From contig NZ_CP011770.1 of the NCBI RefSeq assembly GCF_001028705.1, forward strand, positions 499,501 to 563,500: a DNA stretch of 64,000 nucleotides, in the 5' to 3' direction. The translations under genes were made by a program, and so were the position numbers. A model generated the notes under the pieces. It saw only the letters and a list, made by a program, of their open reading frames with translations. It did not search any database and was not told where the DNA came from. Below are positions 9,920 through 29,675 of the stretch, one piece after another. Numbering within the stretch: the stretch's first letter is position 1; each line of letters begins with the position of its first letter. Source of the stretch: Croceicoccus naphthovorans. GTDB taxonomy: Bacteria > Pseudomonadota > Alphaproteobacteria > Sphingomonadales > Sphingomonadaceae.

Positions 9920-11728
9920 CTAGAACAGCATGCTTATCGCTACGCAACTGACGATTCCTACGAAGATGTTCATCGGCAACCCAATGCGCACGAAATCCAT
10001 AAAGCGGTAATTGGCTGCGCCGTAGACCAGCGTATTCGTCTGATATCCGATCGGTGTCGCAAAACTGGCGCTGGCGCCAAACATGACCGCAACGACGAGT
10101 TGGCGCGGGTCCAGTTCCATTGCATGGCCAAGACCGATCGCAATGGGCGTCATGATCACGGCAACGGCGTTATTGGTCACGGTTTCGGTCAAAATGCTGG
10201 TCATCGCGTAGATTGCAATGAGCAGAACAAGGGGGGACATCGTAGCCAGGTGCGGCTGGATGGTTTCGACGATAAGATCGACTGTGCCAGCGTTTTCCAA
10301 CCCCTTGCCGAAGGCCAACATGGCAAAGATCAGGATGAGCGTGTTTCCTTCGATCGATGCCCATGCCTCTTCCGGCTCGATGCATCGCGTCAGGAGGACA
10401 ATGCCTACTCCGGCCAGTGCGAGGCCTTCGATAGGGAACCCCATAATGGCGGCCAGGATGACGACCCCGGCCAACGTGCCGATAGCGATGGGTGCCTTCA
10501 ACCGGCGAAAGGACCGCACGGGCGCTTCTCCGACATCGGCCAGAGAGACATTGGCCTGCAAGGCTTCCGCGGCATCTCCTCCTGCCGCGATCAACAACCG
10601 GTCGCCGGCCCGCACTCGGACATTGGCAAGATCCGGGCCTGCGACATGGCGCGGGCGCGAAAGACCGAGAACACGGACCTTGAGCCGTGAAAGGAGAGGA
10701 ATGTCGGCCAACCTTCGGCCGATCACTGCATGCGTCGGTGTGATGACGGCGTGAACGAGGCGCAGATCGGCTGGCCGTTCGGGGCCTGACGTGTGCAATC
10801 CGCCTCCCACGCCGAGCAAACCCGTTTTGAAGTCATAGGCTTCGGCCAGAGATGCGAGTTCGTCCGGGCTGGCGGCCACGATGATCTGGTCGCCCGCTTC
10901 AAGAATGTGCTCGTCTATACCTTTGCGTTGGATGTCCTTACCGCTCTGAATACCGAGAACCCGCACGCCCGGCCTACGGGAAAAGGCCGCTTCGCCAAGT
11001 TTGCGTCCAACAAGCGGACTATCGGCGTTAAGGACAAGATGGGAGAGGTAAGTATCGCTCTCACCGTGTTCACCCAGCCCTTGCTCTGCCCGGTCAGGAA
11101 GCAGATGTCGCCCGGTCAGGAACAGGAGGAAAAGCCCTGCGATGACCGAGACTGCGCCAACTCCCGTGATTTCGAAAATGCCGAACGGCGTCAGGCCCTG
11201 TTCCTGAGCAACGCCGTTCACGAGCAAGTTGGTGGATGTGCCGATCAGGGTCAGCGTACCGCCAAGAATGGAAATGTAGGACAGCGGTATAAGCAGCCGT
11301 GTCGAGGCAATTCCCAGGACCCGCGCCAGACGCTGAACGATCGGGATCATGACGATGACGACCGGCGTGTTGTTCATGAATGCCGACGCCAGCAGCGTGC
11401 CGCCGCCAATTTCGGCAACGGCCAGTTTCGGTTTGCGCAAGGTCCTGCGAATGACCCAGCCTGATATTTCCTCGAGCGCTCCCGTTCGCAGCAGAGCACC
11501 GGTCAGAACGAACATGGCGCCGATGGTAATCGGCGCAGAGTTGCCGAACACGCCGAGCAACTCTCCGACCGGGAGGAAGCCGAAAAGCATCATCAGGACC
11601 GCGCCGACAATTGCGATGACGACCGGAGGGCGGCGCTCCAGTGCAAAGGCGATGAAAAGGCCGATCAGAAAGAGAAGGCCTATCTCGGCCCCGAAACGGG
11701 CAACCGTCTGAAAGAATTGTGCAGGCAT
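9920..11728 (-). CDS. SLC13-family permease with two TrkA-C (RCK_C) domains
   Basis: 602-residue inner-membrane transporter. Two blocks of membrane helices flank a soluble centre. The N-terminal block carries the family motif FMNNTPVVIVMIP and LTLIGTSTNLLVNG, and the C-terminal block mirrors it with TETVTNNAVAVIMTPIAIGL and TPIGYQTNTLVYG. The centre (about residues 215-390) has two TrkA-C-like domains (for example LVGRKLGEAAFSRRPGVRVLG and DIPLLSRLKVRVLGLSR). This design is typical of bacterial sodium/sulfate, dicarboxylate or citrate symporters of the YfbS type. Substrate is not determined; nearby genes are metal-related rather than carbon-catabolic. Confidence 0.88.
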   Translation of the reverse strand: MPAQFFQTVARFGAEIGLLFLIGLFIAFALERRPPVVIAIVGAVLMMLFGFLPVGELLGVFGNSAPITIGAMFVLTGALLRTGALEEISGWVIRRTLRKPKLAVAEIGGGTLLASAFMNNTPVVIVMIPIVQRLARVLGIASTRLLIPLSYISILGGTLTLIGTSTNLLVNGVAQEQGLTPFGIFEITGVGAVSVIAGLFLLFLTGRHLLPDRAEQGLGEHGESDTYLSHLVLNADSPLVGRKLGEAAFSRRPGVRVLGIQSGKDIQRKGIDEHILEAGDQIIVAASPDELASLAEAYDFKTGLLGVGGGLHTSGPERPADLRLVHAVITPTHAVIGRRLADIPLLSRLKVRVLGLSRPRHVAGPDLANVRVRAGDRLLIAAGGDAAEALQANVSLADVGEAPVRSFRRLKAPIAIGTLAGVVILAAIMGFPIEGLALAGVGIVLLTRCIEPEEAWASIEGNTLILIFAMLAFGKGLENAGTVDLIVETIQPHLATMSPLVLLIAIYAMTSILTETVTNNAVAVIMTPIAIGLGHAMELDPRQLVVAVMFGASASFATPIGYQTNTLVYGAANYRFMDFVRIGLPMNIFVGIVSCVAISMLF

Positions 11729-11868
11729 GGCACGAACTTATGCCGATCCACAGGCAAGCGGGCCAGAAGTTTTGGTCTACATCTGCTCGATGATTGATCT
11801 GTCGCCGCGAAAAGTCACGTTTGCATCATACATTGCGTTCGCACGGCTTCATGGCTAACGACGCGCTC

Positions 11869-11978
11869 GTCATCTGGGGAGTAGCCAGCCGCCGCAGGGC
11901 GGGCCTGCACGTCAACATACTTGGCCGAGAGGTCATGGTGTGCAGGGAACGAAGCTTCGTTCGGGCGAGACCAATGAC
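11869..11978 (+). ncRNA. yybP-ykoY (Mn2+-sensing) riboswitch
   Basis: The sequence has the hallmark conserved strings of this aptamer in order: CTGGGGAGTAGCC at 11874, ACGTCAACATACTTGGCC at 11910, and GGGCGAGACC at 11963. A short outer stem GTCAT (11869-11873) pairs with ATGAC (11974-11978). It precedes a GDT1/TMEM165-type exporter, the commonest gene class controlled by this riboswitch in proteobacteria. Downstream of the aptamer are two competing stems (see the expression platform entry). Confidence 0.86.
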
Positions 11979-12045
11979 ACCGCGCTTTCGTCCGGCCGGG
12001 CGGAAGGGGTGGTGTCATTGCAGTCTTGAACGCCCGGCCCGGAGA
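11972..12045 (+). promoter_or_regulatory. Riboswitch expression platform with competing stems and ribosome-site occlusion
   Basis: CAATGACACC (11972-11981) is perfectly complementary to GGTGTCATTG (12011-12020), and its first part is also the 3' strand of the aptamer closing stem, so the two pairings exclude each other. A second stem, GGCCGGGCG (11994-12002) with CGCCCGGCC (12031-12039), ends directly before the GGAGA ribosome site at 12041. No T-run follows, so I infer control of translation rather than termination. Confidence 0.6.
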
Positions 12046-12052
12046 ATATGTC

Positions 12053-12619
12053 ATGGAAGCTTTTCTGACCTCCACCGCTGTGGTCGCCCTGGCCGAAATC
12101 GGCGACAAGACGATGTTGCTCGCCATTGTGCTCGCAACACGGTTTCACAAGCCGTTATCGATCATTTTCGGTATCCTGTTCGCGACGTTTGCTAACCACG
12201 CCTTTGCGGCCTTCGTTGGCAATTCGGTCGCAGGCGTTCTGGACGGGCAGTGGTTCCGCTATGCGGTGGGCGCCAGTTTCATCATCATGGCAGCCTGGAC
12301 GCTGGTACCAGACAAGCTTGACGATGATGAAGCCAAGCCCTCACGTTATGGCGCATTTCTGACCACTCTGGTTGCCTTCTTTATCGTGGAGATGGGTGAC
12401 AAGACACAAATCGCGACGATTGCGCTGGGAGCGCAGTTCAACAGTGTTCTTCTGGTCACGGCAGGAACAACGCTGGGGATGATGATCGCGAACGTGCCTG
12501 CGGTCTATCTCGGCGACAGGCTTGTCGAGCGCGTACCCCTGAAATTCGTTCGCACGGTGGCGGCTATCTTGCTGCTCGGCATTGGGGCGTGGGTGATTTA
12601 CGAAACCGCGATGAGTTGA
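12053..12619 (+). CDS. TMEM165/GDT1-family manganese exporter (UPF0016)
   Basis: 188-residue membrane protein with six hydrophobic segments in two homologous halves. Each half carries the family motif E-x-G-D-K-T: VALAEIGDKTMLLAIVLATR near residue 15 and FFIVEMGDKTQIATIALGAQ near residue 117. UPF0016/GDT1 proteins export Mn2+ (and in eukaryotes Ca2+/Mn2+ exchange for H+). The Mn riboswitch in its leader supports manganese as the substrate. The start was set at 12053 because GGAGA lies 8 bases upstream; a TTG at 12026 is in the same frame but lies inside the leader structure. Confidence 0.9.
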   Translation: MEAFLTSTAVVALAEIGDKTMLLAIVLATRFHKPLSIIFGILFATFANHAFAAFVGNSVAGVLDGQWFRYAVGASFIIMAAWTLVPDKLDDDEAKPSRYGAFLTTLVAFFIVEMGDKTQIATIALGAQFNSVLLVTAGTTLGMMIANVPAVYLGDRLVERVPLKFVRTVAAILLLGIGAWVIYETAMS

Positions 12620-12627
12620 GTATGACT

Positions 12628-12659
12628 GCCATATAGGATAGGGAGCTATCCTATATGGC
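12628..12659. promoter_or_regulatory. Perfect inverted-repeat operator, DmeR/RcnR type
   Basis: GCCATATAGGATA (12628-12640), spacer GGGAGC, and TATCCTATATGGC (12647-12659): 13-bp arms without a mismatch. AT-rich arms flanking a G-rich centre are what is known for operators of the DmeR/RcnR branch of CsoR-type repressors. The regulator gene starts inside the right arm (ATG at 12655), so repression would be autogenous. It could also fold as an RNA hairpin over the start codon. Confidence 0.78.
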
Positions 12660-12930
12660 ACATATGCAAACAGACAGGACAAGGCTGCTGGCCCGTGTCC
12701 ACCGGATTACGGGTCAGATGGCTGCGATCGAACGAGCAATCGACGATGATGCGGCATGTGCCGATGTTCTGCATCAGGTTGCCGGTGCGCGCGGTGCGAT
12801 CAACGGCCTGATGAACGAACTCATTGAAGAGCATTTGCGCGAACATGTCGCCCGTCCCGATCTGGATGCTGAAGCGCGCCAGGCAGGGATGGATGAATTG
12901 GTGGCGGTTATCCGCCGCTATGCGAAATAG
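12655..12930 (+). CDS. dmeR: CsoR/RcnR-family metal-sensing repressor, DmeR-like
   Basis: 91 residues, all helical, matching the DUF156/CsoR family: RVHRITGQMAAIERAIDDD, CADVLHQVAGARGAINGL and LIEEHLREHV. The pattern of one cysteine followed by histidines (C at about 41, HQ four residues later, H at 65 and 69) resembles the RcnR/DmeR branch that senses Co2+ and Ni2+ rather than Cu+ (which uses C-H-C). It is followed 10 bp later by a DmeF-type efflux gene and starts within a perfect operator palindrome. ATG at 12664 is an alternative start outside most of the palindrome. Confidence 0.88.
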   Translation: MAHMQTDRTRLLARVHRITGQMAAIERAIDDDAACADVLHQVAGARGAINGLMNELIEEHLREHVARPDLDAEARQAGMDELVAVIRRYAK

Positions 12931-12940
12931 AAGTCGCGAG

Positions 12941-13867
12941 ATGGCCAGTCCTGATCTTGAGATCTCGCAGCTTGCGCATGAGCATGTGTTCCTGGGTGCA
13001 AATCACGATGCGAACACCCGGCGCACCCTTTGGGTGGTGGTCCTGACTGGTGCCATGATGGTGGTGGAGATCCTCGCCGGAACGATCTTCAACTCTATGG
13101 CGCTGCTCGCCGATGGTTTCCATATGGCGACCCATGCAGGCGCCCTGGGTATCGCTGCGCTGGCCTATGTCTTCGCGAAGCGGCATGCGAGGAATCCCCG
13201 TTTTACGTTCGGCACGGGCAAGGTCGGTGATCTGGCGGGCTTTGCATCGGCATTGGTGCTTGCGCTGATCGCGCTGGGCATTGGCGTTGAATCGTTTTCG
13301 CGACTGCTCGAGCCCAGACCCGTTGCCTTTCTGCAAGCCACTGTCGTGGCCGTCATCGGGCTGGCGGTGAATATCGCCAGCGCTCTGTTGCTCGGTGCTG
13401 GCCATGAGCACGGACACGGACATCATCACGGTCATGCCCATGATCATGGAAACCACCACCATCATGACAACAATCTGAGATCGGCCTACGTCCATGTTCT
13501 CGCCGATGCGCTGACATCGGTTCTTGCCATTGCAGCCTTGCTGGGTGGTCGATATCTGGGTTGGGTCTGGCTGGACCCGGTCATGGGCATCGTCGGCAGT
13601 ATCGTCATTGCCGTCTGGTCATGGAACCTACTGCGCGATACTGCCGCGGTCCTGCTCGACACCGGCAACCCCGATATCGAGCAGGAGGTCAGGCTTGAAG
13701 TCGAAGGCCCGGGTGACACCCTGATTACGGACCTTCATGTCTGGCGTCTGGGTCCCGATGCTCATGCGGCGATTGTCAGCGTGACGGGAGTCGCAGACAC
13801 CGAGACCGTGCGCGCGCGGTTAATCCGCATTCACGAGCTGTCCCATCTCACGGTCGAGAGGCGCTAA
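12941..13867 (+). CDS. dmeF: Cation diffusion facilitator, DmeF-type Co2+/Ni2+ efflux
   Basis: 308 residues from the ATG at 12941; the N-terminus MASPDLEISQLAHEHVFLG matches the DmeF pattern with an HEHVFLG motif. Six membrane helices follow, with the CDF motif in helix II (LLADGFHMATHAGALGIA, containing the D and H metal ligands) and in helix V (YVHVLADALTSVLAI). A large His-rich loop with HGHGHHHGHAHDHGNHHHHD lies between helices IV and V (about residues 152-176). The C-terminal cytoplasmic domain is present. It exports cobalt or nickel to the periplasm. The gene is paired with dmeR; the stop falls next to a decayed outer-membrane gene on the other strand. Confidence 0.9.
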   Translation: MASPDLEISQLAHEHVFLGANHDANTRRTLWVVVLTGAMMVVEILAGTIFNSMALLADGFHMATHAGALGIAALAYVFAKRHARNPRFTFGTGKVGDLAGFASALVLALIALGIGVESFSRLLEPRPVAFLQATVVAVIGLAVNIASALLLGAGHEHGHGHHHGHAHDHGNHHHHDNNLRSAYVHVLADALTSVLAIAALLGGRYLGWVWLDPVMGIVGSIVIAVWSWNLLRDTAAVLLDTGNPDIEQEVRLEVEGPGDTLITDLHVWRLGPDAHAAIVSVTGVADTETVRARLIRIHELSHLTVERR

Positions 13868-14718: not shown

Positions 14719-14799
14719 ATTTAAGGCAAGGCGTTATCAAGCCGCCCAATGACGGTGCGTGTGGACGCGCGCCGTTCCTGAATTTTGGAAGGAATGACT

Positions 14800-16884
14800 A
14801 TGAAACCTTTTGGCCTGCTTGCTGGCTCTTCAGTAATTGCCGCAATGACAATCGCGATGCCCGCGTTGGCCGAAGAGGCGAACGAAAGTGATCGACAAGG
14901 CCAGCACAGCCGCCCGGACCGCGAGATCATTGTGACGGCCCACCCGCTTTCGCTGACATCGGATGAAACTGCGACGCCCGTCATCAGTCTTGAAGGTGAT
15001 GATCTTGTCCACCGGGCCCAGTCGACGCTCGGAGACACGCTCGCCGGAATGCCTGGGATCAATGTCGACAATTTTGGTGGTGGAGCGGGGCGTCCGGTGA
15101 TCCGGGGGCAGACATCCCCGCGCGTTCAATCATTGAGCGACGGGTCCAATATCCAGGACGCATCCGCCATCTCGCCTGATCACGCTGTCACGACCGAGCC
15201 CTTGCTGCTTTCAGGAATAGAGGTTTTGCGTGGTCCGTCGGCGCTGATCTATGGCGGCAGCGCCATCGGCGGTGCCGTGAACCTACTGGATGAAAAGGTT
15301 CCGACGAATCTGCCGGAGGGCGGCATAACGGGCGCGGTCGAAGGGCGCTACGGCACATCCGACAACGAACAGACAGGCGTTGGCGGCATCACGGCAAGCA
15401 TTGGCCAATTCGCACTTCGCCTTGAAGGCGTAAGGCGCCAGACGGATGATTACGAGGTTCCGGGCAAGTTCGGCGAGGCGCAAGTGGATGGATCATGGGC
15501 GGACACGTCCACCATCACTGTCGGTGGCTCGTGGATCAGTGATAACGGCTATGTCGGCCTTGCCTATACCCGCCAGCACAATGACTATGGTTTGCCTGGT
15601 CACAACCATGCGTATGAAGACTGTCATCCTCACGGAGGGGAAATCCACTGCGGTACCCATGACGAGGAAGACGACCACGAGCATGACCATGAAGAAGAGG
15701 GTCATGAAGATGCGGTCTTCACGAAATTGCGTAGCGAACGGGTGGATTTTCGCGGTGAGTACCGCGACATTTCTCGCGTGATCGAAAGGGTGCGGTTTCG
15801 TGCAGCCTTTACAGATTACAGTCACAGCGAGATCGAAGAAGGCGATGTCGCCACGACCTTCACCAACAAGGCGCACGACATGCGGTTTGAACTGACTCAT
15901 GCACGATTGGGCGGATTGCGTGGAACGTTCGGCGTGCAACACAGTCACACCAACTTCAAGGCGATTGGCGAGGAGCAGTTTCTCCCGCCCAGCAAGACCG
16001 ACAATACCGCCCTGTTCCTGATGGAATCCTTCAACGCTGGACCGCTTCGGTTCGAGCTCGCTGCGCGACATGAATGGCAGACGATCAAGATCAATGACGG
16101 TCGCAAGACCACGCACCGCCCTTTCTCGGTCTCTGGTGCGGCGATCTGGGACATTGATGGAGATTATTCGGTCGCTCTGTCGATCGCGCGTTCGCAGCGT
16201 GCACCGAACGTACAGGAACTTTTTGCCAATACCGGTGCGCCATGGCGCGGTATCCATCTTGCAACCAACACCTGGGAGATTGGCACTCCCACACTTGGCA
16301 AGGAAACCGGGAAGTCGGTGGACCTCACAGTGCGCAAGACCGCGGGTGACACCACTTTCACACTCGGCCTCTACCATCAGGATTATGACAATTACATTTT
16401 CGCCCAGACACTCGATCAGTTCGAGGATTTTCGCCTCATCCGGTACATGGCCGGCGATGCCCGGTTTACAGGCATTGACGGGGATATTCGTCATCAGGTG
16501 ACGCCCAATGTCGGTCTCGCAGTTTTTGGAGACTATGTCCGCGCCAAATTGAAGGATGGCGGTGGCAATCTGCCTCGCATCCCCGCTGGCCGCCTTGGTG
16601 GCCGGGTTGATGGAGTGTTTGGTCCGCTCTACGGCGATGTGGAACTTTATCAGGTGTTCGAACAGGGCAGGATCGCGTCATTCGAAACGCGCACGTCCGG
16701 CTACACCATGATCAACGCTACCTTGGCCTACAGCTTCGACATTGGCGAAAGAGCGAATGCCGAACTGTTCCTGCGAGGCACGAATCTGGCGAACGAGCTG
16801 GCCTACAACCACGCTTCGTTCATCAAAGATGCTGCCCCTCTACGTGGTCGCAGCTTGTTGATTGGTCTCAGGGCAGGGTTCTGA
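14800..16884 (+). CDS. znuD: ZnuD-like TonB-dependent zinc receptor
   Basis: 694-residue outer-membrane receptor. Signal peptide MKPFGLLAGSSVIAAMTIAM with cleavage after PALA, a TonB-box region (REIIVTAHP), the plug domain with GMPGINVDNFGGGAGRPVIRG and GIEVLRGPSALIYGGSAIGG, then the barrel ending RSLLIGLRAGF with terminal phenylalanine. An extracellular loop at about residues 268-305 is packed with His, Asp, Glu and Cys (HPHGGEIHCGTHDEEDDHEH), the hallmark of ZnuD zinc receptors. GGAAGGA seven bases before the ATG at 14800 sets the start. Zur box upstream. Imports zinc across the outer membrane with TonB energy. Confidence 0.92.
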   Translation: MKPFGLLAGSSVIAAMTIAMPALAEEANESDRQGQHSRPDREIIVTAHPLSLTSDETATPVISLEGDDLVHRAQSTLGDTLAGMPGINVDNFGGGAGRPVIRGQTSPRVQSLSDGSNIQDASAISPDHAVTTEPLLLSGIEVLRGPSALIYGGSAIGGAVNLLDEKVPTNLPEGGITGAVEGRYGTSDNEQTGVGGITASIGQFALRLEGVRRQTDDYEVPGKFGEAQVDGSWADTSTITVGGSWISDNGYVGLAYTRQHNDYGLPGHNHAYEDCHPHGGEIHCGTHDEEDDHEHDHEEEGHEDAVFTKLRSERVDFRGEYRDISRVIERVRFRAAFTDYSHSEIEEGDVATTFTNKAHDMRFELTHARLGGLRGTFGVQHSHTNFKAIGEEQFLPPSKTDNTALFLMESFNAGPLRFELAARHEWQTIKINDGRKTTHRPFSVSGAAIWDIDGDYSVALSIARSQRAPNVQELFANTGAPWRGIHLATNTWEIGTPTLGKETGKSVDLTVRKTAGDTTFTLGLYHQDYDNYIFAQTLDQFEDFRLIRYMAGDARFTGIDGDIRHQVTPNVGLAVFGDYVRAKLKDGGGNLPRIPAGRLGGRVDGVFGPLYGDVELYQVFEQGRIASFETRTSGYTMINATLAYSFDIGERANAELFLRGTNLANELAYNHASFIKDAAPLRGRSLLIGLRAGF

Positions 16885-17847: not shown

Positions 17848-18480
17848 TCAGGTGAGTTGTCGTCTTTGCGCCTCCAGTGCGACCTCAGCGCGGGATGAAA
17901 CATCCAGTTTGCGGTAAATAGATTTCAAGTGATCCCGCACCGTGTGGTAGCTGATATCAAGATGGTCACCGACTTCACGTGCTCTCAGGCCGCGTCCGAC
18001 CAAAGCGAGAACCTCCCGCTCTCTTTCGCTCAGGGGATCGTCTTCGCCAGGGTCATGAGTACGAAAGCGCGCCAGCATCATGCGAGCGATTGCCGGAGAC
18101 AATGCGGGTTCACCATCCATCAACCGCGAGATCCGGTATTGTAACAACTCCGGCTCAACATCTTTGATCAGATAGCCGTCTGCGCCAGCGGCGAGCGTTG
18201 CCTCGACGCTTTCCCGATCATCCATTACGGTTACCGCAGCCACAAGAATAGCCGGGTTCTGCTTGAGTTCGCGGATAATATCCCATCCGCGTCCATCCGG
18301 CAGATGAAGGTCGACAAACGCAAAATCGAATTGCCGGGACATGAAGCTCATGGCTTCGGTATAAGATCGCGCCTCGCATATTGTCGGCGGCGCATGCCCC
18401 TTTTCCGTCGCAGCACCATTGATGGCATCGACCAGGTGCCGCAGCGGGGCTTCGAGATCATCAACAACCAGAACCTTCAT
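17848..18480 (-). CDS. NarL/LuxR-type response regulator
   Basis: 210 residues: receiver domain with the acidic pair DD near residue 7, phospho-acceptor aspartate in FAFVDLHLPDGRGWD, the switch lysine in GYLIKDVEP, then a LuxR-type HTH (LSEREREVLALVGRGLRAREVGDHL). It overlaps the sensor kinase gene by 4 bp, so the pair is co-expressed. Targets are unknown; the neighbouring genes upstream in the same direction are the Slam-like exporter and its large partner. Confidence 0.92.
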   Translation of the reverse strand: MKVLVVDDLEAPLRHLVDAINGAATEKGHAPPTICEARSYTEAMSFMSRQFDFAFVDLHLPDGRGWDIIRELKQNPAILVAAVTVMDDRESVEATLAAGADGYLIKDVEPELLQYRISRLMDGEPALSPAIARMMLARFRTHDPGEDDPLSEREREVLALVGRGLRAREVGDHLDISYHTVRDHLKSIYRKLDVSSRAEVALEAQRRQLT

Positions 18481-20627
18481 TGCGAAGTTGGCGTATCATG
18501 CCTCACCGGCAGCGAAAAGCTCACGGTAAAGCCGCTCCCTGACCCATCGATCTCGACGTGCCCGCCCAATGATCTCATGCGTGTTGTGATGTTTTCCAGT
18601 CCACGACCACGTTTTGTGTTCGCTTTACTGCTCCTGTCGCCAATCCCATCATCGCTCATCCGGCAGAATGCCCGGTTCTCCCTGCAATAGAACTGTACTG
18701 TCATGTGTTTCGCCGAGGAATGTTTGATCGCGTTGGTCACGATCTCTCGAATGATGGACGATACTTCCTTCAGTCCGGCAGGATCCAGCAATGCGGAGGT
18801 CTCAATCAACGGCCATTCAAGGCCAATTCCGGCGGCCTCCAGCCTGTCGGCTGCCTCGGCACGGCAATCTGCGATCACATCCGCCAACTCACGCGAGGAC
18901 GCTACTTCAGCGTTCACGATCGTACGCACTTCGGCCAAGGAGGAGCGCAAGACATCCTTCAAACCAGCTGGATCGTCCAGCGCGAGCCCCGACACAAGGC
19001 GTGCGGACAGGTCATCATGCAAATCCCGTGAGATCCGGCTGCGTTCGCTCGCCACACCTTCTTCAAAGGCATCACGTTTCCGTTTCAGGCTCACCGCCAG
19101 TTCAAACATGCGCGATGCGCTTTTTCGGTCCCGTTCCTGGAACAGACGCAAACCCTTCTGTTTGAACTGCAACAGCAGGGGCGGACTGTCCATCACCTCA
19201 GGAACGCGCAGTGCGGTTCCATGGTCGACGATCGCGACGGTATGGTTGCGCCCATGATCTGGCTCAAGTTCAACAACCTCCAGCGGAGAGAACGCCTGCT
19301 CCATAGCGGATTTCCATGCTGAGCGCCGGTCGGTGGGGGAAGGCAAGAGGGAACCGTGCGCCACTTGTTCGAGCGCGTTCGAATCCTGTGTTGAACCAAA
19401 CAGCCAGCTCTGCATCAGGCGGCGCCACGGGAGATAAAAGAAAGGCAGAATCAGAAGCATCGTCAGAACCGTTGCGCCGCTAAGCGACCCCAGCATGGCA
19501 ATCAGGACAACGTCGACGGTGATCAGAAGAAGACCGATCAATGTCGCCTTGAACATGGAAATTGCCCAGACTTCGCTGGCAAAGAGGAGTTGGCGCCTCA
19601 GGCCCAGAGCCGTGCCAAGATGGACGATCAGAAAGAAGGCGAAGGCAAAGCTCTGATCGATCAGGGGAGCGGCACCAAGCAGGGAAGGGACGATCACAGT
19701 ACATATGAACAAGCCGGAGCCGATCACGGTCGAAACGCCAACCCACCGAATGGCCGCATGCTCCAGAGGTTTGCGGCGGGAAATCACAAACTGGACAATG
19801 ACGAGAACAAGTATTGCTGCCATTTCCAGCGAGGACTGCAAGGGAGCCTCGTTGGTGGGCGACAGCATCAGATTATTGAGCGACAGCAAAAGCCAACCAC
19901 CGAGAATGGCTGTGACGATCATCAAGGTAGCGTTTCCGGCGATGCGCACCGGATAAACCAGGAACAGGCAGATCATCGCCCATCCGAAGCCGACCGCTCC
20001 GAGGCCGTTCAAGGCACTGGCCGTTTCGAAAATATAAGCCGGCAGAGCGAGCCAGCGCGTACTATAGATTGCTGCCGTACTGGCGGCGAGCCAGAGGAAT
20101 ACGCCGGTCAGTCCGAACATCTGATTGGGGAGGCTACGAGGGTGCAGGCTCCATATCCACGCGGAGACCAGAAAGCCGGCAAACCCGACCAGCATCTGCA
20201 GCCAGAATTCGAAAGGCAGGTTCCCACCCGGGGTAAGCTGGTGGACCTCGGTCCCTTGTGCGCCCGGACGACTGCCCCTGAATGAAATCGTTAGAGGTGT
20301 GTCGGTATCGCCGATGACTTGTGCGAGTTCGTCCTGCCGCGCAAAGAAACGATCCTGCTCGGCATAGGACCGGAGCACATCGGGTTCGGGGATCAGATCC
20401 TGGGACAGGATTGTGACCCCATTGGGCAATTGGGGGTTAACCCCGAGAGTCTGGCCGTTGCTGTCCCGCAGCACCACACCATTGTCGGTTACGCGGAGGC
20501 TTTCAGTAAAGCGCGGTTGCGTACTTGCCAGTAGCAGGATGGCTGTGCTTGCGAGAATCCCGATCAGAACCGACACGATCAACAAGGTGCCGGGCGTCAG
20601 GAATTGGTTGAAGCGCCTGCTGTCCAT
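18477..20627 (-). CDS. Membrane sensor histidine kinase (HisKA_3 family)
   Basis: 716 residues from the ATG at 20627, which has GGGGGGA just upstream; an ATG-like start at 20660 is less likely. One N-terminal helix, then a periplasmic domain of about 100 residues with a PDZ-like feel (GVTILSQDLIPEP ... DTDTPLTISFRG), then about eight membrane helices, a soluble linker and a NarX/UhpB-type kinase core. The phospho-acceptor is in RISRDLHDDLSARLVSGL (about residue 535) and the ATPase domain has REIVTNAIKHS and GRGLENITTRM. Overlaps its response regulator by 4 bp. Ligand unknown. Confidence 0.9.
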   Translation of the reverse strand: MDSRRFNQFLTPGTLLIVSVLIGILASTAILLLASTQPRFTESLRVTDNGVVLRDSNGQTLGVNPQLPNGVTILSQDLIPEPDVLRSYAEQDRFFARQDELAQVIGDTDTPLTISFRGSRPGAQGTEVHQLTPGGNLPFEFWLQMLVGFAGFLVSAWIWSLHPRSLPNQMFGLTGVFLWLAASTAAIYSTRWLALPAYIFETASALNGLGAVGFGWAMICLFLVYPVRIAGNATLMIVTAILGGWLLLSLNNLMLSPTNEAPLQSSLEMAAILVLVIVQFVISRRKPLEHAAIRWVGVSTVIGSGLFICTVIVPSLLGAAPLIDQSFAFAFFLIVHLGTALGLRRQLLFASEVWAISMFKATLIGLLLITVDVVLIAMLGSLSGATVLTMLLILPFFYLPWRRLMQSWLFGSTQDSNALEQVAHGSLLPSPTDRRSAWKSAMEQAFSPLEVVELEPDHGRNHTVAIVDHGTALRVPEVMDSPPLLLQFKQKGLRLFQERDRKSASRMFELAVSLKRKRDAFEEGVASERSRISRDLHDDLSARLVSGLALDDPAGLKDVLRSSLAEVRTIVNAEVASSRELADVIADCRAEAADRLEAAGIGLEWPLIETSALLDPAGLKEVSSIIREIVTNAIKHSSAKHMTVQFYCRENRAFCRMSDDGIGDRSSKANTKRGRGLENITTRMRSLGGHVEIDGSGSGFTVSFSLPVRHDTPTSQ

Positions 20628-20739
20628 TAGTCCCCCCAGACGAATTGGGTGGAGATACAAATCGTTGCGGTCAAGCCGAACAGCAGGAAATGCAATCTCC
20701 TGCTCGCGTCCAGGATACTCCGTGTCCTAATACGAGGAA

Positions 20740-20795: not shown

Positions 20796-23700
20796 TCAGT
20801 TCTTGCCAAATACGATCCCGCCATCGACCTGCTTGTCGAAACCCATGTTACCGAACGTATAGTTCAGGCCGATATGGCTAGCGCCATCTCCGGCAAGGAA
20901 CCCGGTGATATCGGCCCCGCAATCGCCCTGACCGCCGCAAACCGAACCGCTGCCCGATTCCACGGTTGCCACCAGATTATAATCACGGAACACCATGTGG
21001 TTCTGATCGCCGGCGACACCCACGGCCATGCCGCTGGCCGGATTGGCCGCGCCGCCATTGGTGGCAATGCCATAGGTGGATCCGCCAATCGTTACGTTCA
21101 GATCCACGCCGACATGAGGGATGGAGCCAAAGGCAACCGCCGCCGATCCGGTGACGCTGCCTGGCGCAATACTGCCATCGCGCATGGTAGGCGCGGTGGA
21201 GCCGACCATGGAATAGGTGGCCGTGCCGCTGGCAGGCAGATTGGTGGCCGGCGTGCCGGACACGATGTGCCAACCGCCATTGGTGGGTAGATCTGCCGTT
21301 GGCAGGTTGTAATATTTGCCCCCGGTCGTCCCGCCGGCCCATCGCGCCCATCCGATCACATCGGTCACGCTGCCCGCCTCGTGCAGCGAAGCAGAGCCGA
21401 TGGTGGGTTCTTCATTGGGCGGCGCGAAGCTGTAGGCGATCGGCGCGCCGGTGGTGTTGTCGTAAGTGACGGTGGTGGGTTGCCGCTGATCGATCCCGAT
21501 TACGCTGGAAGAATAGGTGGTGATCTGGTCGGCTCGCTCGGTGCCGTCCAGCGGCGGCGCATCGGGAATCAGCGTGCCGCCTTCGAACACCGACGCACCG
21601 GCGATAGTTGCCCATTCGCTCGCTTGCTCGTTGTAGATGATATAACCCAATGTGGCCCAGCCGGCCCCTTCGCCGCCAATCTGTCCTTGCAAGCGGGTGT
21701 TGCACAGCGTGGTCCCATCACAAGCTGCGCCTGCGGTGCTGACAGCGGTATTGGACACTGTGCTGTTGAAAGTCAGCATTGCATTGCCATCTGGCGAGAG
21801 AAACGTCGAAACTGAAGGATTCGCGATGCCGCCAGCCGTTTCAAAGCTGTAGGTTGCATCCGGCATAGCCACCGTTCCAGCCACGCCGACCAGATTGCTG
21901 GTCCCGAACTTGACCGCCATATCACCGGTAAAGGTGCCCGGAGCAGTGGCTTCGTTCGAATAGGTGGGTCGGGTTGCCGCCTTCAACGCGTAGTTGATCG
22001 TTCCGGTCGCGGGCAGATTGGCGAGTGCGGGAATCAGCGCATAATGCACCCCATTGTCGGCGCCGAAGATGGTCGAATAGAGTGTATTGGTCCCCGTACC
22101 TTCCAGCATTCCGCCATGGAAACGGCCAATCTGCCATTCACTGTCCCCGGCCAGGTCGGCGACCTGCATCGTGTTCCGGTCCAGCATGATGTCGCCTTCG
22201 CGCGTCGGATTGGTCGCATCATAGGTAAGCGACACCAGCCCGCGATCGTCGAACACCGGTATGAACAGGGCATTGGTCGAGACATAGTTGCCGCGGATAT
22301 TGTTGCCGCCGCCATGGACGATAACTGGCAACAGACCAGTGCCGGAATAGGGGTTCGTCAGGCTGCCTGATGCGGCGCCGGCACCGGCGGTGAATGACAG
22401 ATTATTGAGTTCGCTTGCCGCAAGCGAAAAGACACCGCTTGCTCGTTCGGCACCGCCTGTGGTGGTGAAATAACCGCCAGCCTGCGCAAAATCATCGGTA
22501 AACTGGCCGACTACGCGGACCAGACAGCTGTTACCAGCGGTGCAGAAATCGCCCGTGCCCGATGTAACGCTGGCAAACGGAGCAAAGGCGTAGCTCCCCA
22601 TGGTTGCGCCTTGCGTGACCACAGCCGCAAGGCCGCCGGGGGTCGAAAATTCATAGGTGGTGTCCAGGCTCAGCGTCCCCTCCACCGCAACCCGGGGCGT
22701 ATAGCCAAACGCCACGGCCATGGTCATGTCGAAACTGGCATTTGTTAGGCCATTGGTGGTTTGCGGGGCATAGCCGCCGGTCAGGGCGTAGGTTACCGTT
22801 CCGCCTGTCGGTAGAATGGTGTTGGGATTGGAAATGGCCACCATGTCAAATGTGCGGCCTTCCGACACTTGATAGGGCGTATCATAATAATCAAATGACC
22901 CTTCGCCAAAGCGGGTCAGCAAGACGTAATCGGTACCGCTCTGTTCCAGCACAGGCATGTCGCCCCGCCGGAAGCGAACCGCACCCAGATATTCCACATC
23001 ATTTATGGCGCCGTCGTCGTCCCGTGTGGCTGAGCCTGAAACTGCAGGGTTGTTTAAGGTGGGACTTCCGGTTCCCTGCTGCGCGTAGGTGGCGCTGTAG
23101 AATACGATATTCGATGCATCGAAATCCGGCGCGACATATTCGCCGGTTCCACCACCCCCGCCACTGCCGGTATCCGCCACGAAGCCGGCCGATCCGGCAA
23201 AGCCGATGCTGCCGTCCCCGCCTTCGCGTGAAGCGTAGGAGAGGACCAGCGCCTCTGCTTCATCACCGCCCGGCGTGGCGCCGAGGTAGATGTTGCAGTT
23301 CGTAGCGCCAGCTACGCAGGCCTTGCCTGTTCCGACTAGTGGCGCGCTTTGCTGGATTGCCATCCGGTCCGCTGAAGTAGCAAAGGTCGTCACCGGCAGA
23401 TCGAGCACGCCCGCCACACCGCCAGGCGTGGTGAAGGTGTAGGTCGTATCACCGGGCATAATCACGCTGCCTTCCGCCGCCATACGCAGCTGAAGACCAT
23501 TATAATTCACAGCGATGGCTGCATCGAACGTGCCGGGAGCCGAAGAACCGTCGTTGAACGTGGGGCTGGTCGCGCTATCCAGAACATAGTTGATCGTCGC
23601 ATTGGCAGGCGCGTTTACCAACGGTGCGGCGGTGGCGAAATGCAGCCCCTGATCGACGCCCAGCGCCCAGTACTGGCCACCATAGGTATAGCGATCACCG

Positions 23701-25709
23701 TAGACGCGCGTGGACGTGGTTACAGAGCCAATATCGCGTTCTGCTACCGTTGGCCCCTGAACCAGAATATCGCTCAGGATGTAGACCGGAGCGCCATCGG
23801 CATCCAGCGTCAACGGCATCGTGTAGCCACCGGTGCTGGTCGCGGCCTGAACGGCGGCATTGGGCCGGTTCAGCGCATGGGCAACGGCATAGGTTGCCGT
23901 CGATCCGCCCAGCGCGGGCAGGCCGGGAAACTCATCCGCATTTGGATTGCCGCCAAACCGCACATAGTTGAAATAGGTGTTGAGCAGCGCATTGTCTTCC
24001 GCCCGTCCGTCCTGTTGCAGTTTCAGGCTAACGTAATCCTGAAAGTACGCGAGCACGGTATCGAAATCGGCATCGGTAAAGGTGCTGGGAAGGCCATTGG
24101 CCTTGATATGGGCGAGAAACCCATCGACGATCGCCAGCTTCTGCGCATCGCTGAGACCCGTGGTGGGCAAGCCGGGGAACTGGTCTGCCGAGCCTCCATC
24201 GTTGAGCCAGGCGAGATAGGCCGTCAGGAATTCCCCCTGTCCGTCAGGCAAACCGGCCAGCAAACCCGCGTCGTTCAAGGCCTGAAGATAGGCGAGCAAC
24301 GCCTGCTGCGTCAGCGAGTCATATTCGGACGGCACGCCGCCATCTGCCAGATATGCATAATAAACCGCCAGCGCCGCAGCATATTGTTGGGCAAGCGCAT
24401 CGCTCAGACCGGGGATGAGCGCGTCGATGCCGTCGTAGTCACCGGGAAGACCGCCATTTTCCAGATAGGCGAGATAGGCACGCAAGGCATCGGCCTGCAC
24501 TGCGAACAGGCTGTCCAGCAGGCCTGCGTTTTCGAGCGCGGCGAGATAGGCCTGAATCTGAGCGGCGGACAAGACATCATAGCTGCCTGCCGCGCCGCCA
24601 TCAGCCAGATAGGCTAGATAGGCAGCGAGCGCATTGCCATAGGCGGTCAGCAGTTCCGGGTCGATCGTCCCATCGCCATAGACGAAGCTTGCTGGATCGC
24701 CCCCTTCCGCGAGAAATGCCAGATACGCCGCGATCAAGTCCTGCTGCGAGGCGAACAGCTGCTCGAGCTGACCGTTGGCCTGCAGATAGGCGAGGTAGGC
24801 ATTGACGCTGTCCAGGTCGGCACCTTCGAAATCAGCGGCCGATCCACCCTGTTGAAGCAGGGTCAGATACTGGGCGAGAATAGCATTATAGGCGGCCTGG
24901 AACTGGGCCGCATTGCCGCTATCGGCGAGATAGCGCAGATAGGCTTCGATCAGGGCGGGCGACAGGGCTTGCGCGTCCCCATCGTGCACAATCGCCAGAG
25001 CCGCTGCGAGGCGCGCTGAGTAGTCCAGCAGGCGCTCGATATCGCCCGAAGGCAGCGCGCGCGGCGGCCATTCCAGAGCGCGTGCATCGACCGTCCGCGC
25101 CGCCTGTTGAATGTCGCCGGACGCGCCGATCGCGCTGAGGGCAAAACCCAGCGTGACGGGCAGGCCATTCAGTGCTGCGCCACGAATTCCTTCCTGCTTC
25201 AGCGATGCGACGGAAGCCAGGCGTTTGCTGTCAGGTGTCTGCTGCGCCGGATTGGCAAAGACGCGCCGGGCCTGTTCGCCGACCGCCATCGTCCAAGCGG
25301 ACCCGGCGGAAAACTTGTTGGTCTTGCCTTCGCGGGCAAGGGTTGTGGTGCCGTCAAGGACATGCCCGCGAACCGCACCGTCACGCACTGTCAGGCTTGC
25401 AGAGCCGCTGATACGCGCACTGCCGCCGCTTTCGAAGAAGATGACGATGTCCGACTTGTCGTCTGATATGATCGTGATCGCGCCTTCACCAATTGTGAGA
25501 CGCTCCCCGTCAATGAAGTAACGGGATTTGCCGACAAGACTGACAAGCGCGCCGCTGTTCAGCCTGATCTGGGTTACGCCCGAGCTTCGGGTTTGCCAGC
25601 TGCGTTCCGGCACGGAACCGTTGGATCCGAAAATATAGTCCGCCGCTTCGGCGGGGTGTGCGACGGCAAGAATGGACGCTGTCGCAAGCAGGAGTGTCTT
25701 GTTGAACAT
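20796..25709 (-). CDS. Large secreted FecR-domain protein with helical repeats and four TbpB-like beta units (predicted Slam substrate)
   Basis: 1637 residues. Signal peptide MFNKTLLLATASILAVAHPA, cleavage after AEA, no lipobox cysteine. Residues about 40-150 form a FecR-like beta domain (GVTQIRLNSGALVSLVGKSR, GGSARISGSASLTVRDGAVR). Residues about 240-593 are about 13 helical repeats of roughly 27-35 residues with the core AYLAYLxxGG. From about 610 to the end come four related beta-rich units of 250-275 residues. Each has a PATGTINYAL-type strand, a TTYTFTTPGG-type strand, a close cysteine pair (CVAGATNC, CTAGNSC, CDGTTLC, CGGQGDC) and a closing strand; the last ends DGGIVFGKN, like TbpB/HphA barrels. 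The Slam-like gene is 14 bp upstream. Role inferred: surface or secreted binding protein or adhesin; ligand unknown. Confidence 0.75.
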   Translation of the reverse strand: MFNKTLLLATASILAVAHPAEAADYIFGSNGSVPERSWQTRSSGVTQIRLNSGALVSLVGKSRYFIDGERLTIGEGAITIISDDKSDIVIFFESGGSARISGSASLTVRDGAVRGHVLDGTTTLAREGKTNKFSAGSAWTMAVGEQARRVFANPAQQTPDSKRLASVASLKQEGIRGAALNGLPVTLGFALSAIGASGDIQQAARTVDARALEWPPRALPSGDIERLLDYSARLAAALAIVHDGDAQALSPALIEAYLRYLADSGNAAQFQAAYNAILAQYLTLLQQGGSAADFEGADLDSVNAYLAYLQANGQLEQLFASQQDLIAAYLAFLAEGGDPASFVYGDGTIDPELLTAYGNALAAYLAYLADGGAAGSYDVLSAAQIQAYLAALENAGLLDSLFAVQADALRAYLAYLENGGLPGDYDGIDALIPGLSDALAQQYAAALAVYYAYLADGGVPSEYDSLTQQALLAYLQALNDAGLLAGLPDGQGEFLTAYLAWLNDGGSADQFPGLPTTGLSDAQKLAIVDGFLAHIKANGLPSTFTDADFDTVLAYFQDYVSLKLQQDGRAEDNALLNTYFNYVRFGGNPNADEFPGLPALGGSTATYAVAHALNRPNAAVQAATSTGGYTMPLTLDADGAPVYILSDILVQGPTVAERDIGSVTTSTRVYGDRYTYGGQYWALGVDQGLHFATAAPLVNAPANATINYVLDSATSPTFNDGSSAPGTFDAAIAVNYNGLQLRMAAEGSVIMPGDTTYTFTTPGGVAGVLDLPVTTFATSADRMAIQQSAPLVGTGKACVAGATNCNIYLGATPGGDEAEALVLSYASREGGDGSIGFAGSAGFVADTGSGGGGGTGEYVAPDFDASNIVFYSATYAQQGTGSPTLNNPAVSGSATRDDDGAINDVEYLGAVRFRRGDMPVLEQSGTDYVLLTRFGEGSFDYYDTPYQVSEGRTFDMVAISNPNTILPTGGTVTYALTGGYAPQTTNGLTNASFDMTMAVAFGYTPRVAVEGTLSLDTTYEFSTPGGLAAVVTQGATMGSYAFAPFASVTSGTGDFCTAGNSCLVRVVGQFTDDFAQAGGYFTTTGGAERASGVFSLAASELNNLSFTAGAGAASGSLTNPYSGTGLLPVIVHGGGNNIRGNYVSTNALFIPVFDDRGLVSLTYDATNPTREGDIMLDRNTMQVADLAGDSEWQIGRFHGGMLEGTGTNTLYSTIFGADNGVHYALIPALANLPATGTINYALKAATRPTYSNEATAPGTFTGDMAVKFGTSNLVGVAGTVAMPDATYSFETAGGIANPSVSTFLSPDGNAMLTFNSTVSNTAVSTAGAACDGTTLCNTRLQGQIGGEGAGWATLGYIIYNEQASEWATIAGASVFEGGTLIPDAPPLDGTERADQITTYSSSVIGIDQRQPTTVTYDNTTGAPIAYSFAPPNEEPTIGSASLHEAGSVTDVIGWARWAGGTTGGKYYNLPTADLPTNGGWHIVSGTPATNLPASGTATYSMVGSTAPTMRDGSIAPGSVTGSAAVAFGSIPHVGVDLNVTIGGSTYGIATNGGAANPASGMAVGVAGDQNHMVFRDYNLVATVESGSGSVCGGQGDCGADITGFLAGDGASHIGLNYTFGNMGFDKQVDGGIVFGKN
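23930..24990 (-). repeat. Tandem AYLAYL helical repeats inside the large secreted protein
   Basis: About 13 copies of a 27-35 residue unit with core (A/T)YLAYLxxxGGxxxxF/Y. Examples are AYLRYLADSGNAAQF, AYLAYLQANGQLEQL, AYLAFLAEGGDPASF, AYLAYLADGGAAGSY and AYLAWLNDGGSADQF. The DNA copies are diverged, so this is a protein-level repeat and not a simple DNA satellite. Confidence 0.85.
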
Positions 25710-25723
25710 CGATCTTGCTCCAA

Positions 25724-27037
25724 TCAGAATTCGTAGCGGACGGCCATGCTGGCCGTCATGCGGTCGTAGTCGTTGAGTGCGAAATTGCTCCAGTTGCGGG
25801 AATAGGTCAGGCGCGGACGGACATAGATGTCATCGCTCAGCAACGCCTTCAGTCCCAGAGAGACATCGAGCTGTTCGTCCTTGCGCCTGGCAAGAAACAG
25901 CGGATCGGCGCGATCGTATCGCCGCACTTCACCGGCGATCCCGGCGACCAGGGCAAGCTTGCTCGCGACGGGTTGCTCGATGCCGAGATTGACCCGCGCA
26001 AAGTCGAAGGACAGGTGATCGCCCGCATCACGGCGGGTCTCTTCGTGTCCACCGGAGATGCTCGCGATAAAAGTGCGGCCGGCATAGGACGCGCCCACTC
26101 CGTATCGGTCGGCATCGCGCAAGGGATCGCCATCGAAGTTCAATCGGAAATACTCGGCCGAAAAACTCAGGGCCTCACCATTACCCAGGCGCTTTGTGTA
26201 TTGTCCGATGCCCCCCAGGCTGAGACGATAGCTATCACCGCCCAACCAGAATTGTTGTGCTTGTACAGAGAGGGAAAGAACGTCGCGGTTCGCCAGTGTG
26301 TGGCCGACGCCGGCTGTTCCGGTCACTGCCGCCTGGTCAAACGCACTGCTGTCGTAGTTTTCGCGCCAGTTGCCCAGCATTGAAGCGAACAGCCGGGTTT
26401 GCCTGGAAACCGCGGTAACTCCCGAGAGACCGCCGAGCACTTCGTGAAACGCCTTGCCCTGTTCACGCGCCCCCGTACCCAGGGTGCCTGGACCGAATGC
26501 TGCAAAAAGCGGGATCACGATCGTATCGTGATCGGTCGCGGCATTGATATTGCTGTCATAACCACCAGACACGTCAACAAAGCCGCTGACGCTGCTGCCA
26601 CCGCCGGTAATCTGCTTGTCATAGTCGCGCACGATACGATCGAACCGTTGGCGCACGGGATCGGGCAGGCTTGGGTCGTTCACCACCGTATCGAATTGCT
26701 CGCGCGCCGTATCGATATCGCCGGCCATGGCATAGACACGCGCCAGTTCCGCACGAGCCTGAGTATGCTCGGGGTTGGCGGCGAGGACACGCTGAAAGGC
26801 GAGTATGGCCTCGGCCTTGTGCCCGGAATCGGCGGCTGCAAGTCCAAAGATGTAGTTGAAGTCCGGATCGCTGCTGCGCGCCTCCAGCTGCGGCTTCAGC
26901 GTTCGATAGGCAGCATCGGATTGCCCGGTATTCTGCAGTTGCAGGGCCTGGCCGACCAGATCATCCATTTCCGCATGGGCGGGGTGAGCTGCAATCAACG
27001 CCAGCCCTGCCGAACTCAACAGCAATCGTTTAACCAC
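25724..27037 (-). CDS. Slam-like outer-membrane exporter (TPR domain plus beta-barrel)
   Basis: 437 residues from a GTG at 27037 with an AGGGGG ribosome site; signal peptide VKRLLLSSAGLALIAAHPAHA. Residues about 25-150 are TPR-like helices (YIFGLAAADSGHKAEAILAF, ARAELARVYAMAGDIDTA). From about 165 a beta-barrel follows, starting SSVSGFVDVSGGYDSNINAA, the strand-and-turn signature of the DUF560/surface lipoprotein assembly modifier barrel, and ending DRMTASMAVRYEF. Slam proteins move TbpB-like lipoproteins, or soluble haemophores such as HphA, across the outer membrane. The next gene, 14 bp downstream, carries TbpB-like units and is the obvious cargo. Confidence 0.8.
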   Translation of the reverse strand: MVKRLLLSSAGLALIAAHPAHAEMDDLVGQALQLQNTGQSDAAYRTLKPQLEARSSDPDFNYIFGLAAADSGHKAEAILAFQRVLAANPEHTQARAELARVYAMAGDIDTAREQFDTVVNDPSLPDPVRQRFDRIVRDYDKQITGGGSSVSGFVDVSGGYDSNINAATDHDTIVIPLFAAFGPGTLGTGAREQGKAFHEVLGGLSGVTAVSRQTRLFASMLGNWRENYDSSAFDQAAVTGTAGVGHTLANRDVLSLSVQAQQFWLGGDSYRLSLGGIGQYTKRLGNGEALSFSAEYFRLNFDGDPLRDADRYGVGASYAGRTFIASISGGHEETRRDAGDHLSFDFARVNLGIEQPVASKLALVAGIAGEVRRYDRADPLFLARRKDEQLDVSLGLKALLSDDIYVRPRLTYSRNWSNFALNDYDRMTASMAVRYEF

Positions 27038-28763: not shown

Positions 28764-29405
28764 TCATCTCTCGGATGCTTGCAGATCAACCATTCGCAGA
28801 TAGGGCTTCAGAGTCCTGAACCCTTGCGGGAACTGACGCTGTGCTTCCTCGTCTGAGAGTTTTGGCGATATAACGACCTCGTCACCCGGAGACCAGTTGA
28901 CCGGAGTCGCGATGCTGCGCGCATCCGTCAGCTGCAAGCTGTCGATGGCGCGTAGAATCTCTGCGAAATTGCGCCCGGTGCTGGGCGGATAGGTGAGGAT
29001 GAGCCGGACCTTTTTTGAAGGATCGATGACGAAGACCGAGCGCACGGTAAGGGTAGGATCGCTTTGGGGGTGGATCATGCCGTAAAGTGTGGAGACAAAG
29101 CTGTCCGGATCCGCGATCATCGGGAAGTTCAACGCGGTGCCCTGGGTCTCCTCGATATCGAGTTCCCATTTGCGGTGCGCTTCGAGCGGATCGACCGAGA
29201 GCCCGATAGGCTTGACGTTGCGCTTTTCCCATTCGGCACGCAGCTTCGCCACTTCTCCAAGCTCAGTGGTGCAGACTGGAGTGAAATTCTTGGGATGGCT
29301 GAACAGCACCCCCCAGCTCGATCCGAGCCAGTCGTGAAAATGGATGCGACCGTGCGTGCTGTCCTGTTCAAAGTCTGGTGCAATCTGCCCGAGCTGGATG
29401 GCCAT
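28764..29405 (-). CDS. 1-Cys peroxiredoxin (Prx6/AhpC-TSA family)
   Basis: 213 residues; ATG at 29405 preceded by GGAGGAA six bases away. Active-site peroxidatic cysteine in HPKNFTPVCTTELGEVAKL (about residue 47), with the TxxC form of the family and a catalytic arginine in LTVRSVFVID. The long C-terminal arm (SPGDEVVISPKLSDEEAQRQ) and absence of a resolving cysteine place it in the Prx6 group. It reduces H2O2 and organic hydroperoxides in the cytoplasm. It is divergent from the LysR gene, fitting stress linked to sulfur metabolism. Confidence 0.92.
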   Translation of the reverse strand: MAIQLGQIAPDFEQDSTHGRIHFHDWLGSSWGVLFSHPKNFTPVCTTELGEVAKLRAEWEKRNVKPIGLSVDPLEAHRKWELDIEETQGTALNFPMIADPDSFVSTLYGMIHPQSDPTLTVRSVFVIDPSKKVRLILTYPPSTGRNFAEILRAIDSLQLTDARSIATPVNWSPGDEVVISPKLSDEEAQRQFPQGFRTLKPYLRMVDLQASER

Positions 29406-29675
29406 CGATTCCTCCGTTATCTCGGTTACAACGTGGATCAATCACGGTTCGCAAACAAACGAATATTATATATGAATGAAAGCAATATTTTTACTGGATA
29501 GAGGGAGGACATCCTGGGGATCTGCGTTGCGATATCGTCGGGTTGGCCTGCATACATGCAGCGCGCTCCGAAACCACCTCCGTATTGCCTGCAACCTTGC
29601 CCCTTCAGGGTCGCTTGCCTATGATCCATGCAGATTTTGAATGTATTACTCTTTTTACCGCAAGGATTATGCTGC

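Follow-up and report, generated by a model that had tools for sequence, protein, structure and literature searches.

A probable variant of type 11 secretion: a giant FecR/TbpB-like protein paired with a divergent exporter and linked to sensor genes in Croceicoccus naphthovorans

Type 11 secretion systems (T11SS; Slam/DUF560) are known with several kinds of cargo. Here, we compare these with a locus of Croceicoccus naphthovorans that lies in a stretch of 64,000 nucleotides (contig NZ_CP011770.1, positions 499,501 to 563,500; hereafter the window) and consists of an exporter gene, the gene of a giant putative cargo protein, and the genes of a histidine kinase and a response regulator. TbpB and LbpB of Neisseria, with Slam1, share with this locus the exporter family and the predicted handle-barrel fold of the cargo units. 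TbpB carries a lipid and two lobes and acts together with a TonB-dependent receptor, whereas the window cargo lacks a lipobox and has four units and a FecR-like domain. Haemophilins (HphA/HrpC/Hpl), which use a T11SS exporter, are likewise soluble, non-lipidated proteins with a handle and a barrel, but they have a single unit and neither FecR domain nor helical repeats, and they are usually linked to haem uptake. Pls-like T11SS cargo of Haemophilus parahaemolyticus also carries helical repeats ahead of a C-terminal barrel. There, EEARKA-type helix repeats precede one barrel, while in the window cargo the repeats are of a 24-residue AYLAYL type and come with FecR and four units.

Sphingomonas surface proteins (PMC12282271; Sphingomonadaceae subcluster 1C, PMC8406197) resemble the window cargo in that they occur in sphingomonads, have a DUF560 exporter nearby and two to three handle-barrel pairs, and are in part non-lipidated. 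As the accessible text of PMC12282271 describes them, they differ in their N-terminal proline-threonine repeats and detectable TbpBBD domains. The window cargo lacks proline-threonine repeats; its N-terminal half consists of a FecR-like domain and helical repeats, and its four units give no PF01298 match. The same text already covers cargo with several lobes from Sphingomonas and Psychrobacter (two to three handle-barrel pairs in both), non-lipidated cargo, and helical-repeat cargo (Pls; the tested homologue has 525 residues). Hence, a preliminary description of the window erred in taking known cargo to be always single-barrelled, as TbpB has two lobes and the Sphingomonas and Psychrobacter proteins have two to three pairs. 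It also knew of no described Slam pathway with this cargo design, which understates the published work, as multi-lobe sphingomonad cargo is in print. Neither a FecR-bearing T11SS cargo nor a kinase or CHAT link was found in the open-licence literature searched (supplements aside). The accessible text of PMC12282271, PMC8406197, and PMC5449769 contains no occurrence of FecR, CHAT domain, or histidine kinase. The window cargo differs from FecR/PupR anti-sigma regulators in that its FecR-like domain stands at the front of a protein that is putatively exported.

We consider it likely that the locus represents a divergent, sensor-linked T11SS branch which displays a giant non-lipidated FecR/TbpB-like protein, with the adjacent kinase and regulator controlling the pair. 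The pair is best classed as a new T11SS variant, and the greater surprise of the finding lies in the sensor-linked module. The features are as follows:

25724..27037, minus strand: exporter of 437 residues with GTG start; signal peptide, tetratricopeptide repeats (TPRs), and SlipAM/DUF560 outer-membrane barrel
25710..25723, minus strand: spacer of 14 bp from exporter stop to cargo start
20796..25709, minus strand: cargo, giant protein of 1637 residues
25140..25634, minus strand: FecR-like domain of the cargo (residues 26-190), immediately after the signal peptide
23910..25049, minus strand: helical repeats of the cargo, period 24 (residues ~221-600)
23130..23909, minus strand: cargo unit 1, handle and TbpB-like barrel (residues 601-860; barrel 701-843)
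22374..23129, minus strand: cargo unit 2 (residues 861-1112; barrel 966-1088)
21552..22373, minus strand: cargo unit 3 (residues 1113-1386; barrel 1232-1376)
20799..21551, minus strand: cargo unit 4, presumed export signal (residues 1387-1637; barrel 1491-1635)
18477..20660, minus strand: sensor histidine kinase of 727 residues; HATPase_c at 33.4 bits, several membrane spans predicted by simple hydropathy; relatives adjoin the pair in other genomes
17848..18480, minus strand: LuxR/NarL-type response regulator of 210 residues, its gene sharing 4 bp with that of the kinase

The order on the minus strand is exporter, 14 bp, cargo, 135 bp, histidine kinase, response regulator. Both frames of the pair are present as the preliminary description gave them, 14 bp apart on one strand; the kinase and regulator genes are added here. 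The exporter matches PF04575 SlipAM with 34.4 bits (cut-off 22) over profile positions 11-283 of 288, and TPRs precede this region (TPR_16 and TPR_19 above cut-off), which agrees with the proposed TPR plus DUF560-type barrel. NCBIfam matches of the exporter to MamA, BcsC, PgaA, and others were rejected, as all lie inside the TPR part (residues 8-135). A SlipAM search of the 3.86-Mb genome returned a single gene, the window exporter. Some close homologues are already named DUF560 or surface lipoprotein assembly modifier in databases. A PF04575 search of the order missed the window exporter and recovered only 4 of 7 paired exporters; therefore, an exporter profile was used instead. At 1e-15, it found 14 genomes, seven with E values of 4.6e-168 or better and seven at 2.1e-26 or weaker, where the window and genome G076 are contained in the profile and owe their scores partly to its construction. 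Only the first seven are counted as window-type exporters. We further drew 20 control loci from the 52 other SlipAM rows of the order; one of them (L062) has no exporter-profile match. In a tree of 41 sequences, all of the same order, the 22 exporters from paired loci form one side of a branch with 100/100 support and a length of 1.74, separate from the 19 control-locus exporters; the tree program warned that the placement of the long row L029 is unsure. Pfam TbpBBD lies within 5 kb of 26 of the 52 other SlipAM rows vs none of four window-type rows.

Exporter and cargo occur together. Among 196 genomes sampled from the order, the cargo unit was found in seven and the window-type exporter in the same seven, and the genes are neighbours in all of them. 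In the family sample, the exporter is present in 22 of 397 genomes; G076 brings the set to 23 loci. The cargo follows directly downstream on the same strand in 22 of these, and every gap is at most 32 bp. Two distant exporters were added by the class sample of 385 genomes (L084 and L085), and both adjoin a one-unit cargo of ~500 residues. Across this branch, the cargo thus adjoins the exporter at 24 of 25 loci, so that the survey of cargo homologues did not reveal a general lack of an adjacent DUF560 gene. The exception, L061, is an exporter fragment without cargo and was retained in every count. It appears as a decayed module, in which a 245-residue exporter fragment stands beside a 577-residue CHAT protein (12353-13090 and 10638-12371), with no cargo and no kinase.

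This constancy bears on whether the two genes merely share an operon, the exporter carrying another substrate and the giant protein staying periplasmic or leaving by another way. Tested T11SS cargo is far smaller than the window cargo, and export of the giant protein by this exporter is our deduction. Against a mere shared operon stand the 24 of 25 paired loci with the same order and strand, the predicted unit fold, which is that of T11SS cargo, and the distant loci, which retain just the exporter and a one-unit cargo. We regard it as very improbable.

The cargo begins with a Sec-like signal peptide without lipobox, as judged by eye, and a simple lipobox pattern within the first 40 residues occurs in only 1 of 82 listed cargo homologues. 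A simple hydropathy scan of the mature protein gave no transmembrane helix. For residues 225-600, autocorrelation peaks at period 24 with 0.11 (best of 300 shuffles, -0.17), and the structure model has ~14 long helices in residues 221-585, so the earlier count of about 13 helical repeats is fair. These repeats have no clear PDB match among those listed. Pfam matches of the cargo to phage integrase SAM-like and DPC2 (relatives: ANAPC2 and others) are taken as chance likeness of the helical repeats. A search of genome contigs with the cargo gave 42 pattern matches and no relatives. In databases, its homologues are named hypothetical, DUF4214, DUF3739, or FecR family protein.

Homology links the four C-terminal units to each other, with pairwise BLASTP E values from 5e-13 to 1e-24 (computed without masking or composition correction). 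All 50 PDB entries listed for the modelled units are TbpB, LbpB, fHbp, NHBA, HpuA, or haemophilin; these matches bear mostly on units 3-4. A unit profile widened to 274 units is linked to TbpBBD by profile-profile comparison. The cargo thus has several TbpBBD-type domains, namely four units, by homology and fold and not by Pfam, and the modelled units resemble TbpB lobes, as had been supposed. The C-terminal handle-barrel of the cargo is predicted to have the TbpB/lipoprotein C fold of T11SS cargo. Elsewhere in the same genome, ~2 Mb from the pair, a 415-residue frame carries a sub-threshold TbpB_B_D match of 24.3 bits (cut-off 26; G000:C1:2543879-2544142).

For the N-terminal domain, fold comparison points to the FecR/PupR fold. 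Pfam FecR gives no match in the window cargo itself but is above cut-off in three relatives (L029, L085, and P0012), and a Pfam scan of the cargo found no anti-sigma domain. Among the 22 cargos of the order, 21 have FecR by profile and the remaining one (L029) by Pfam. Of the distant cargos, that of L085 contains FecR by Pfam, and that of L084 can be aligned with the FecR profile (hhalign 96.1 %). Because the distant one-unit cargos are also FecR-bearing, the core cargo design is signal, FecR, linker, and unit, and the window protein is an enlarged form.

A kinase together with a regulator is present at 22 of 23 Sphingomonadales loci, with kinase profiles built from seven of them, vs 1 of 20 control SlipAM loci (Fisher 4.8e-10). 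The stretches scanned were 16-20 kb (window, 25 kb; controls, 15-20 kb). Among the controls, three have a kinase alone and four a regulator alone, and the sole control with both has one open reading frame matching both. The 23 loci span 15 genera and are not independent; by genus, kinase and regulator are found in 14 of 15. Their distance to the pair ranges from 84 bp (L024) up to ~5 kb (L058, L059). Two kinase types occur. Type 1 is multi-span and is found in the window, L024, and L029, with weaker matches in L046 and L047. Type 2 has two spans and comes with an OmpR-like regulator, in the relatives of the window mostly alongside a small protein.

Such sensor genes, like the CHAT genes described below, might be passengers that travelled along with the pair and are functionally unrelated to it. 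The spread of the locus is patchy, as 22 of 397 family genomes have it and none of the 10 listed genomes of the same genus gave a match; kinases are common, with 21-44 HATPase_c matches per genome in seven genomes; and L084 has no kinase. Yet the contrast with the controls, the recurrence in 14 of 15 genera, and the two different kinase types that adjoin the pair argue for linkage, and we find a passenger origin quite improbable.

The small protein (~180-210 residues) is found at 15 of 23 loci vs 0 of 20 controls, with a profile from four loci; six of the 15 have a lipobox by eye. It is conserved and signal-bearing (L025:4589-5155, L026:2595-3212, and 13 more loci), the four members scanned have no Pfam match, and the kinase gene usually adjoins. 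CHAT domains are caspase-like proteases. A CHAT-domain protein is encoded at 14 of 23 loci vs 0 of 20 controls (p 1.1e-5), as found by a profile built from 11 open reading frames in 10 of these 14 loci. Pfam identifies CHAT in ten open reading frames from nine loci, eight of them with TPRs. The His and Cys residues are kept in 11 of 11 aligned sequences, and several proteins have signal-like N-termini by eye. The 25 kb scanned in the window contain neither the small protein nor CHAT; two CHAT genes lie elsewhere in this genome. In L060, a second, short CHAT protein (10744-12075; 443 residues, no TPR match) follows right after the cargo, and a CHAT-TPR gene precedes the exporter. A further gene family occurs in five loci (L028:7007-7987, L055, L058, L059, and L060), its members being called at 240-387 residues; that of L028 matches SH3_3 weakly, just below cut-off.

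Several points weigh against the proposed sensor-linked T11SS branch. Export of the cargo by the exporter is inferred. The exporter TPRs reach only 19.7 bits with TPR_Slam (cut-off 35.2). PF01298 TbpB_B_D has no match in the cargo at E <= 1 and none at the seven cargo loci. A shallow profile of the last unit retrieved nothing relevant in the PDB and aligned with TbpBBD over just 31 columns (probability 2.3); the link to TbpBBD comes from the widened profile. Global confidence of the structure models is modest (predicted template-modelling score, pTM, 0.50 and 0.31). Matches to whole TbpB have a root-mean-square deviation >17, so the models do not predict the arrangement of the lobes. As to the sensor genes, outside the seven loci that supplied the kinase profiles the count is 15 of 16, and the linkage is missing at the decayed locus L061. 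Beyond the order, L084 shows neither a kinase nor a regulator match in 19.5 kb; it is the one testable locus there, as L085 lies on a 6.4-kb contig.

On the favoured reading, Sec would export both exporter and cargo. Known T11SS are thought to engage the last unit of their cargo. The exporter would correspondingly engage the C-terminal handle-barrel unit, the putative signal, and move the chain through the outer membrane. On the outside, a helical-repeat spacer could hold up to four TbpB-like lobes, with the FecR-like domain at the N-terminus. This domain may serve as an anchor, a guess based on its place after the signal peptide, where lipidated cargo bears its lipid. The sensor genes probably determine how much exporter and cargo is made, and at loci with a CHAT protein, this protein could trim the cargo. 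A bolder version, which we hold to be quite improbable, is that the FecR-like domain takes the place of the lipid anchor and remains at the periplasmic face of the outer membrane. One giant protein would then span from the periplasm to the surface, and binding at the outer lobes or cutting by CHAT would be read by the kinase and reset production.

What the lobes might bind leads to another explanation, in which export is still by T11SS. As in TbpB, HpuA, and the haemophilins, the lobes would together act as a multivalent binder of haem or metal and pass the ligand on to a TonB-dependent receptor. The nearest folds are indeed iron and haem proteins, and a gene for a ZnuD-like TonB-dependent receptor lies ~1 kb past the response regulator on the opposite strand (14785-16884, plus). 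However, receptor-like genes are not enriched, with 4 of 23 loci vs 6 of 20 controls by a home-made profile of moderate sensitivity, while the accessible text of PMC5449769 gives a TonB-dependent receptor in 120 of 185 Slam clusters. Capture would presumably also not need long helical spacers or FecR. Nutrient capture is thus unlikely, with an appreciable chance left to it. Because the receptor linkage is not enriched, we slightly favour surface contact or sensing.

A promoter scan gave 5 sites vs 3.7 (standard deviation 1.8) in shuffles and a terminator scan 12 vs 7.7 (standard deviation 2.8). In the interval between cargo and kinase, the minus strand has a single weak site resembling a terminator (20715-20698). 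The ZnuD-like receptor scores 610.9 bits, below the NCBIfam cut-off of 950. Past the upstream neighbour of the exporter, a peroxiredoxin with a 1-Cys C-terminal domain is encoded (28764-29441, minus).

The locus points to a class of large T11SS cargo that the standard TbpBBD domain search overlooks (0 of 7 loci) and that TbpBBD-based surveys would miss. It also connects T11SS with two-component genes in the neighbourhood and, at many loci, with CHAT proteases. It further provides an example on which to ask by what means a non-lipidated protein of such great length and with several lobes could pass the outer membrane and remain attached.
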